From Bacteroidota bacterium (GTDB lineage Bacteria > Bacteroidota > Bacteroidia > JABEUT01), in NCBI GenBank assembly GCA_013288345.1, contig JABDCA010000002.1, positions 113,686 through 155,443 on the forward strand: DNA of 41,758 nt. The letters run 5' to 3'. Numbering within the stretch: position 1 is the first letter of the stretch; each line of letters begins with the position of its first letter. Made by a program: the position numbers and the translations under genes. Under the pieces are notes generated by a model. The model was not told the origin of the DNA and did no database searches. It saw only the letters and a program-made list of their open reading frames with translations. Of the stretch, positions 40,798-41,758 are shown one piece after another.

Positions 40798-40880
40798 GGT
40801 TATTGATGCTTTTCACTTTATCTCCCCTCAATATCGATTTTTATAGAAGCGAACTTATTTCCAACTTTCAATAATTCTTT

Positions 40881-40888
40881 TACCTTTG
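40881..40888 (+). promoter_or_regulatory. promoter box of tandem unit 1
   Basis: TACCTTTG, full consensus, 18 nt before the tRNA-like segment. Its context, TACCTTTGCACCTCC followed by an A-run, is what I would expect before a Bacteroidota stable-RNA gene. Confidence 0.55.
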
Positions 40889-40906
40889 CACCTCCAAAAA
40901 AAGTTT

Positions 40907-40961
40907 GGCCCGTTCGTCCCTGTCTGCCGACAGGCAGGTAGGGGTGAGGATGTCAGGTTTT
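40907..40961 (+). pseudogene. tRNA-Glu 5' half, interrupted in the D-arm (unit 1)
   Basis: Removing 40919-40938 leaves 35 nt that read as a tRNA-Glu from the first base to the anticodon loop: acceptor GGCCCGT, TC, D-stem GTC, D-loop TAGGGGTGAG, GAT, G, anticodon-stem TCAGG, then TTTT. The 3' half is missing (no acceptor complement, no GGGG TTCGATT CCCC). Only TTCGATT (40971-40977) resembles a T-loop, without its stem. The inserted 20 nt are the palindrome CCTGTCTGCCGACAGGCAGG. Confidence 0.6.
40919..40938. repeat. palindromic mini-element inside the tRNA remnant (unit 1)
   Basis: CCTGTCTGCCGACAGGCAGG. CCTGTC can pair with GACAGG around TGCC, or CTGCC with GGCAG around GACA, giving alternative hairpins. 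The same family lies at 6700-6721 and 10887-10909. Confidence 0.8.
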
Positions 40962-40983
40962 TATATCAATTTCGATTAATTTC

Positions 40984-41247
40984 ATGAAAGTTTTTACTTA
41001 TGCAATATATTCGGCATCAGCTGATATAATATATGTTGGCATTTCTAAAGATGTAAGCCAGAGATTAGCGGAACATAATTCGGGAAAAGCAAAATTCACT
41101 AAATCATTCAGGCCTTGGATTGTCTTTTATTCTGAAGAATTTGCAAGCTATTCTGAAGCGAGAAGCAGAGAAAAACAGTTGAAAGCTAGTTCAGGAAAAA
41201 GTTTTTTGAGGGAAAAATTGAATGCTTTTCGGCAAAGAGCTGAATAA
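40984..41247 (+). CDS. GIY-YIG nuclease domain protein, copy 1
   Basis: 87 residues, a minimal GIY-YIG domain of UPF0213/YhbQ type. Motif parts: Y6-A-I-Y9 (GIY side), Y17-V-G19 (YIG side), R27, H31 and the catalytic glutamate E63 in SREKQLK. Stand-alone members occur in mobile elements and in repair. It follows the tRNA remnant by 22 nt, so the promoter at 40881 would transcribe both. No ribosome-binding site is recognisable, as is usual in this phylum. The protein is identical to copy 2. Confidence 0.9.
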   Translation: MKVFTYAIYSASADIIYVGISKDVSQRLAEHNSGKAKFTKSFRPWIVFYSEEFASYSEARSREKQLKASSGKSFLREKLNAFRQRAE

Positions 41248-41308
41248 ATCTATAATCCGGTTATTTTATTGAGATGTTTAACTTATTTCCAACTTTCAAT
41301 AATTCTTT

Positions 41309-41316
41309 TACCTTTG
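41309..41316 (+). promoter_or_regulatory. promoter box of tandem unit 2
   Basis: TACCTTTG, the copy of 40881-40888. Confidence 0.55.
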
Positions 41317-41334
41317 CACCTCCAAAAAAAGTTT

Positions 41335-41389
41335 GGCCCGTTCGTCCCTGTCTGCCGACAGGCAGGTAGGGGTGAGGATGTCAGGTTTT
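41335..41389 (+). pseudogene. tRNA-Glu 5' half, interrupted in the D-arm (unit 2)
   Basis: Second copy of the segment at 40907-40961, including the palindrome at 41347-41366. The identity argues for duplication of the whole unit rather than repeated independent insertion. Confidence 0.6.
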
Positions 41390-41411
41390 TATATCAATTT
41401 CGATTAATTTC

Positions 41412-41675
41412 ATGAAAGTTTTTACTTATGCAATATATTCGGCATCAGCTGATATAATATATGTTGGCATTTCTAAAGATGTAAGCCAGAGATTAGCGGA
41501 ACATAATTCGGGAAAAGCAAAATTCACTAAATCATTCAGGCCTTGGATTGTCTTTTATTCTGAAGAATTTGCAAGCTATTCTGAAGCGAGAAGCAGAGAA
41601 AAACAGTTGAAAGCTAGTTCAGGAAAAAGTTTTTTGAGGGAAAAATTGAATGCTTTTCGGCAAAGAGCTGAATAA
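41412..41675 (+). CDS. GIY-YIG nuclease domain protein, copy 2
   Basis: 87 residues, identical in sequence to the product of 40984-41247, with E63 and the Y-A-I-Y / Y-V-G motifs intact. Because both copies are complete, each is presumably functional or very recently duplicated. Confidence 0.9.
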   Translation: MKVFTYAIYSASADIIYVGISKDVSQRLAEHNSGKAKFTKSFRPWIVFYSEEFASYSEARSREKQLKASSGKSFLREKLNAFRQRAE

Positions 41676-41707
41676 ATCTATAATCCGGTTATTTTATTGA
41701 GATGTTT

Positions 41708-41758
41708 AACTTATTTCCAACTTTCAATAATTCTTTTACCTTTGCACCTCCAAAAAAA
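41708..41758. repeat. 428-bp tandem unit, copy 3 (cut by window end)
   Basis: First 51 bp of a third unit, with its TACCTTTG box at 41737-41744, ending in an A-run just before the tRNA segment would begin. The array may therefore extend further. Confidence 0.85.

Follow-up and report, generated by a model that had tools for sequence, protein, structure and literature searches.

Small GIY-YIG nuclease units with displaced tRNA pieces and palindromes as probable homing elements of bacterial tRNA genes

Large islands integrate into tRNA genes and rebuild the gene by a copy borne on the element, and REP palindromes are partnered with RAYT (Y1) transposases. In fungal mitochondria, the mORFs of Glomus atp6, atp9, cox2, and nad3 and of Allomyces atp6 are described, in the part of the source used here, as endonuclease ORFs inside a gene, where a replacement end restores the gene and the native end is displaced beyond the ORF (PMC3630166). 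The same part gives the Glomus atp9 mORF as GIY-YIG (PMC3630166). Passages on phages T4 and T6 describe SegB as a free-standing GIY-YIG homing endonuclease in a tRNA region (PMC13096335; PMC2988022). In T6, tRNA-Tyr and segB are amplified in tandem, which one of these passages attributes to recombination of the tRNA 5' region with the segB 3' region (PMC13096335). Among the literature matches listed, no title or abstract opening describes GIY-YIG elements at tRNA genes of bacterial chromosomes; most subscription journals and bioRxiv lay outside the coverage of this search.

A nuclease unit before an intact tRNA-Glu gene

The window is the whole stretch of DNA that was analysed, 41,758 nucleotides at G000:C2:113686-155443, where G000 is the window genome (about 87% complete). 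It ends in a tandem array, and all features given here lie on the + strand. Unit 1 (40852..41279) and unit 2 (41280..41707) are each 428 bp long and equal letter for letter, and TRF reports a 428-bp period with a 100% match. This bears out the initial annotation, which had described two identical units and a third one begun. The last piece (41708..41758) is either the start of this third unit or the promoter of an intact tRNA-Glu gene and is cut at the window end by a scaffold gap. Each unit consists of a promoter, a tRNA-Glu 5' half with a palindrome in its D-loop, and an 87-codon GIY-YIG gene, in that order. The promoter contains TACCTTTG (40881..40888), a –7-like element that fits TAnnTTTG, which we take to be the Bacteroidota –7 promoter consensus. 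A similar TA..TTTGC block stands before tRNA-Glu in the printed relatives. Displaced tRNA-Glu positions 1-12 (40907..40918; unit 2, 41335-41346) agree at 12 of 12 letters with the genome's own intact tRNA-Glu, and positions 13-35, which reach the anticodon loop (40939..40961; unit 2, 41367-41389), agree at 21 of 23, with two changes. Between positions 12 and 13 lies a 20-bp palindromic insert, CCTGTCTGCCGACAGGCAGG (40919..40938; unit 2, 41347-41366), and no tRNA letters are lost. The alignment with intact tRNA-Glu that had been proposed as a check thus upholds the earlier reading of the segment as a tRNA-Glu 5' half with its promoter.

Neither ARAGORN nor Rfam called a tRNA anywhere in the window, as is expected because the tRNA half is interrupted. 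At the gathering score, Rfam found 0 families in the whole window and no self-splicing intron core (group I intron or IStron), so we rejected a reading of the unit as a tRNA intron. Beyond the window end, the scaffold resumes after a gap of 100 N with the 44 bp that close the unit; the promoter then recurs, and behind it stands an intact tRNA-Glu(TTC) gene, which is uninterrupted and hence no host of an intron or intein. The direct repeat R, which is the promoter region plus tRNA-Glu positions 1-12 (40852..40918), recurs before this intact gene at 99% identity, with one extra A. The layout in the genome is promoter, broken 5' half, and nuclease at least twice, then promoter and whole tRNA-Glu. 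One tRNA-Glu was present among 30 loci examined out of 37 tRNA matches in G000. Since there is a whole tRNA-Glu behind the array, the tRNA gene is kept, and the 5' half is either a duplicate or a remnant that was displaced. The initial proposal of a homing-like element that captures a tRNA 5' half and amplifies therefore holds for the homing-like, tandem character of the unit and has to be changed for the half itself. Likewise, the anticodon loop, mentioned before as a frequent target of integrating elements, is just the place where the tRNA match stops in the window copy, and this edge varies among elements.

The nuclease gene (40984..41247) and its identical second copy (41412..41675) are intact ORFs. 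The 87-residue product was correctly assigned from the outset and matches PF01541 with E 1.9e-17. This gene is the sole complete ORF of at least 60 codons within the 428-bp unit, and no integrase of the kind carried by a tRNA-integrating island is present there. GIY-YIG (PF01541) is also the only Pfam family matched by the window protein, so no RAYT (Y1) transposase partner was found. In an alignment of 15 sequences, the window included, Y6, Y17, G19, R27, H31, A59, E63, and K67 are invariant, and these conserved residues include the GIY-YIG active-site positions. The AlphaFold2 model of the nuclease has a mean pLDDT of 95.2. The nearest solved sequences are UPF0213 proteins BH0048 (E 4.1e-15) and EF2693 (E 1.8e-14), then SLX1 and I-TevI. 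A PDB fold search agrees with this, with BH0048 at the top and alone under E 0.001 and little found beyond UPF0213 and SLX1. The nearest solved folds belong to DNA-acting proteins (SLX1, I-TevI, UvrC) or to uncharacterised GIY-YIG proteins. BH0048 and EF2693 resemble the window protein as small GIY-YIG proteins and are its closest solved sequences, but the match lists name no function for UPF0213. A search of viral contigs with the window protein returned no relatives, and none were found in plasmids; 11 phage records matched, all at less than 60% identity.

Within the genus, the tRNA-Glu region was matched in nine of 11 genomes, the window's own included. One of these, G007, has tRNA-Glu without the nuclease, with a like promoter and similar flanks (69% nucleotide identity upstream and 74% downstream). 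Other genes between these flanks differ too, so the comparison lends some support, but G007 does not show an empty site that is separated from the window by insertion alone. The window genome contains a second arrangement of this kind on contig 45 (L010:1-660), where another GIY-YIG gene stands between a tRNA-Ala 5' half with a palindrome and an intact tRNA-Ala, behind which comes a displaced 3' half that has a second palindrome. The nuclease of contig 45 is 37% identical to the window nuclease.

Linkage to tRNA genes across genomes

To survey other genomes we used a search profile of 15 tRNA-linked proteins, which, being built from tRNA-linked members, cannot speak for all small GIY-YIG proteins. 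Among the matches listed, at least 92 of 149 class genomes have a match at E ≤ 1e-15, a threshold that also admits weaker matches, mostly not tRNA-linked in the window genus. In that genus, one of 13 GIY-YIG matches scoring below 70 on the profile was tRNA-linked (a broken copy), and three more were near a contig end. The class sample consisted of 106 loci from 58 genomes outside the window genus, all with a score of at least 70, and was the top of the listed matches by protein score plus one array. Matches above about 75 bits were taken blind to tRNAs, followed by a few just below; G015 and contig 29 of G076, of similar score, and all lower matches were left out. L128 was removed as a duplicate of L203.

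An intact same-strand tRNA was called by ARAGORN within 400 bp of the best-scoring nuclease copy at 85 of the 106 class loci, in 52 genomes and 33 families. At none of the 106 was there a tRNA on the opposite strand only. The fetched loci are the top of the listed matches, so 52 tRNA-linked genomes and 33 families among the 149 genomes are a lower bound. Among the 21 loci that fail the 400-bp rule, ARAGORN called no tRNA at 16, and at the other five a tRNA stands at a greater distance along an array; five of the 21 were scored near a contig end. BLAST of 15 of these 16 and of two other tRNA-less loci found tRNA pieces of at least 30 bits at seven of the 17 and none at ten. The sixteenth adjoins tmRNA. 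GIY-YIG genes lie beside tmRNA at L197:998-1822 and L047:2473-3231, and at L197, beyond the nuclease, 19 nt of the tmRNA 3' end are present again as a displaced copy. Among relatives in named genomes outside the genus, four of nine are beside a tRNA with displaced pieces, which are Arg in Cyclobacteriaceae, Arg in Bacteroidales, Asn in Nitrospirota, and Glu in Shapirobacteria, where the displaced piece was seen by eye and the BLAST test found none. The other five had no ARAGORN tRNA in the DNA examined. Neither of two named-genome relatives scoring 80-90 was tRNA-linked, and one of them is beside tmRNA.

This gave 102 linked loci (87 from the class, 11 from the genus, and four from named genomes) with 14 tRNA isotypes. 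The window unit is thus no one-off, and the architecture is found at 14 isotypes in both polarities, in addition to one displaced tmRNA end. The intact tRNA is upstream of the nuclease at 70 of the 102 loci (U) and downstream, as in the window, at 32 (D). On the side of the nuclease away from the intact tRNA, part of that tRNA was found a second time at 79 of 102 linked loci (51 of 70 U and 28 of 32 D) and was absent by the same test at 23, compared with 435 of 9336 (4.7%) when loci were paired with tRNAs of other isotypes as a control. Either the 5' part is displaced upstream or the 3' part is displaced downstream, and both occur. Sequence beyond the tRNA is also duplicated, with a score above 99% of controls, at 25 of 42 U and 11 of 23 D loci and not at the rest. 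At L045:3236-3270, the nuclease reading frame enters the 5' part of an intact tRNA-Asn, so the last residues of this nuclease are coded by the tRNA gene.

On a nuclease tree of 102 proteins and 84 columns, in which 55 of 99 inner branches are unresolved, tRNA isotype required 44 changes versus 74.6 when shuffled (0 of 200 shuffles as low). By contrast, host family required 85 changes versus 85.7 (88 of 200). Because isotype clusters and host family does not, these data indicate that lineages keep their tRNA type while crossing hosts. The side of the tRNA clusters weakly (24 changes versus 27.6; 11 of 200).

Tandem nuclease genes were present at 15 of 141 loci, with up to ten copies at a 457-bp period, a count that is biased because L217 (G116:C9:623200-627600) was fetched since its matches looked array-like, that omits the broken second copy at L043, and that includes L045, where the two tandem genes are unlike each other. 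At 14 of the 15 loci, the window included, identity between the first and the second copy is 93.5-100% in the part that can be aligned. At L171 (G116:C9), ten tandem GIY-YIG units with the 457-bp period follow tRNA-Met. In the U arrays at L217 and L171, the repeat consists of the nuclease, the tRNA 3' part, and the sequence that follows the tRNA, and in the window (D) it consists of the promoter, the tRNA 5' part, and the nuclease. These are the contents that unequal recombination of the duplicated pieces of the tRNA would be expected to give.

Palindromes and nuclease lineages

The initial annotation had set the palindrome aside for a tRNA search. It turned out to be a recurrent part of these elements. 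A palindrome score of at least 18 was reached by 47 of 79 displaced copies, as compared with 2.7% of 1580 background windows and 12 of 79 intact tRNAs. By position index, most D loci have the palindrome in the D-loop or anticodon arm, and of the U loci where it could be placed nearly all have it in the anticodon or T arm. Past the palindrome, the tRNA match continues towards the nuclease for a median of 18 nt (U, n = 22) or 20 nt (D, n = 9). As a comparison, I-TevI is described in the passages used as cutting 23 and 25 nt from its insertion site (PMC2988022), and we regard the two spacings as a possible resemblance only. The palindromes vary in their letters yet stay palindromic, as with TCCCGATATATCGGGA and TCCCGACGCGTCGGGA within locus L210. 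Several palindromes of the same family accumulate in single pseudo-tRNAs, and CTGCC palindromes can be inserted with every tRNA letter kept. At L217 (upstream of tRNA-Asn), L231 (tRNA-Met), L144, and L193, we observed repeated pseudo-tRNAs, with periods of for example 127 bp and 93 bp, that have palindromes and no nuclease inside the repeat.

The family to which a palindrome belongs goes with the lineage of the nuclease, also where isotype and host differ. On the nuclease tree, palindrome family required nine changes versus 29.2 when shuffled (0 of 300), and again 0 of 300 shuffles were as low when the shuffling was within isotype or within host family. When each protein was compared with the closest one whose isotype and host family both differ, the palindrome family was the same in 39 of 55 cases, where 12.3 were expected. 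The classes behind these counts were set after the sequences had been seen and cover 55 of 70 palindromes, with 15 that could not be classed left out. A class-free Mantel test with all 70 palindromes gave r 0.40, and 0.33 for pairs that differ in both isotype and host family (0 of 2000 permutations each). Nine of the 79 displaced copies, with a palindrome score below 14, were omitted from both the tree and the Mantel tests.

Similar palindromes also occur elsewhere in the genomes. The 18-bp core of the window palindrome has nine exact copies in G000, seven of them outside the array, while the reversed control has 0. The ten palindrome sites outside the array (seven exact and three with one mismatch) have no tRNA, and six are in a common longer repeat. 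At L240 and L242-L246 in G000, the palindrome has a fixed place in a longer dispersed repeat, which reads GGGCGTTCCCC...GGGTCGGGC, palindrome, CTATCCGCT... The exact class form, CCTGCCTGCCGGCAGGCAGG, is absent in G000 and present in 20 of 149 genomes. Counted by eye among the matches listed, 16 of these 20 carriers have a nuclease match at 1e-15 versus 76 of 129 others. G040 has 58 TCCCGANNNNTCGGGA (TCCCGA..TCGGGA) palindromes and no nuclease match at 1e-15 among the matches listed. In the samples examined, most palindromes of these families sit away from tRNAs. The data do not support the idea that dispersed TCCCGA..TCGGGA palindromes are mainly tRNA footprints, since only two of 13 fetched regions of G066 have a tRNA.

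Proposed mechanism, alternatives, and known systems

Considering the architecture, the tRNA linkage, the tracking of isotype and palindrome by the nuclease, and the arrays, we think it likely that the unit is an intronless homing element of a tRNA gene, with a lineage-bound palindrome and tandem amplification driven by recombination; cleavage and mobility are the steps that we infer. In this model, the small free-standing GIY-YIG endonuclease would cut tRNA-Glu genes that lack the element. Repair would then bring in a copy of the nuclease gene along with a new promoter and tRNA 5' half that replace the old ones. The tRNA gene would thereby be rebuilt intact downstream, and the old 5' half would stay upstream as the remnant that is observed. 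The palindrome may be placed at or near the cut site, which would make the remnant uncuttable and non-functional. The R repeats of tRNA origin flank the nuclease gene, and unequal recombination between them could amplify the element in tandem or delete it cleanly. Sister lineages would act likewise at other tRNA isotypes and in either polarity. Possible, but less probable than not, is a two-part system, in which each minimal GIY-YIG lineage (about 85 aa) would home into one tRNA isotype or tmRNA and would also recognise or deposit its own palindromes, which would scar and silence the displaced tRNA. If so, the scattered small palindromes of many Bacteroidota genomes would be footprints of these nucleases.

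Because its units are identical and the scaffold breaks within it, the window array could be suspected of being an assembly artefact of a single unit. However, the window assembly contains a join of unit tail, 67-bp repeat, and palindrome that should be absent from a single unit; this join would need at least two tandem units, so that a pure artefact is unlikely and the copy number would be at least two. Other genomes have arrays with non-identical copies, including the ten-copy array at a 457-bp period, which is inside a 994-kb contig. In view of these arrays we rejected an artefact as the whole explanation, and we consider one improbable for the window array. Nor does local duplication by replication slippage of the tRNA, with an unrelated GIY-YIG gene hitchhiking, appear at all probable. 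Such slippage could account for the nuclease-free pseudo-tRNA arrays (three copies at 127 bp in L217), but it fits neither the linkage, which is same-strand at 85 of 106 loci and opposite-strand only at none, nor a nuclease phylogeny that tracks isotype and not host. Type III toxin–antitoxin systems, with an RNA antitoxin that neutralises an RNase toxin, provide a comparison for a third possibility, namely that the nuclease cuts a given tRNA isotype and the hairpin pseudo-tRNA is an RNA antitoxin or decoy. Isotype specificity and the tandem hairpin pseudo-tRNAs beside the gene at L217 and L231 would suit this idea, but it leaves unexplained both the place of the gene at that tRNA gene, between duplicated promoter or terminator pieces, and the unoccupied site in G007. 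In addition, the nearest solved folds that have been characterised act on DNA. We therefore regard action at the RNA level as quite unlikely.

A further alternative concerns the palindrome and would replace that part of the account only, since it overlaps with the homing reading. The GIY-YIG enzyme might itself deposit or mobilise a cognate palindrome, for which tRNA remnants are simply tolerated places of insertion. This would agree with the palindrome family following the nuclease lineage across isotypes and hosts, with the window palindrome being the host's own dispersed variant, with the piling-up of palindromes of one family in the same pseudo-tRNAs, and with CTGCC palindromes that insert without loss of tRNA letters. 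On the other hand, palindrome-rich G040 and G056 have no nuclease match at the cut-off used (among the matches listed), few of the palindrome regions fetched from G066 have a tRNA, carriers of the exact form CCTGCCTGCCGGCAGGCAGG are only slightly likelier to have a nuclease match, and no target-site duplication was noticed. Such a partnership is possible, although on this evidence we lean against it.

Together, these data suggest that a minimal selfish gene of about 0.4 kb uses tRNA genes while keeping the tRNA whole in either polarity. The same arrangement, with a matching palindrome, recurs beside tRNA genes of many kinds, both within related bacteria and in a few that are distant. The homing reading offers an explanation for pseudo-tRNAs and for tandem tRNA-nuclease arrays, and it gives a lead on the origin of some dispersed bacterial palindromes. 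The target-specific lineages of these very small nucleases are also a natural set for the study of how GIY-YIG specificity changes.

As for known systems, tRNA islands are alike in that the gene is rebuilt, but here the unit of about 0.4 kb contains no integrase, and a 5' half that includes the promoter can be what is displaced. REP palindromes and RAYTs likewise join a family of short palindromes to a nuclease lineage, whereas here the partner is a GIY-YIG protein and the palindromes are in tRNA remnants. SegB shares with the window a GIY-YIG nuclease in a tRNA region and tandem amplification of tRNA and nuclease, and the amplification proposed here resembles that driven by SegB in phage T6. 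However, SegB belongs to a phage genome and targets a tRNA intergenic region, and the passages on it mention no displaced tRNA half or palindrome (PMC13096335; PMC2988022). With the mORFs, as far as the part of the source used describes them, the elements share a rebuilt host gene and a partial second copy beyond the ORF, as seen in the window and at 79 of 102 loci. The mORFs differ in that they are found in mitochondrial protein genes and displace the carboxy-terminal end, whereas the elements here are at bacterial tRNA genes, involve either end, are about 0.4 kb long, have a lineage-specific palindrome, and form arrays (PMC3630166). The homing principle of fungal mitochondria would thus appear to be moved to bacterial chromosomes.
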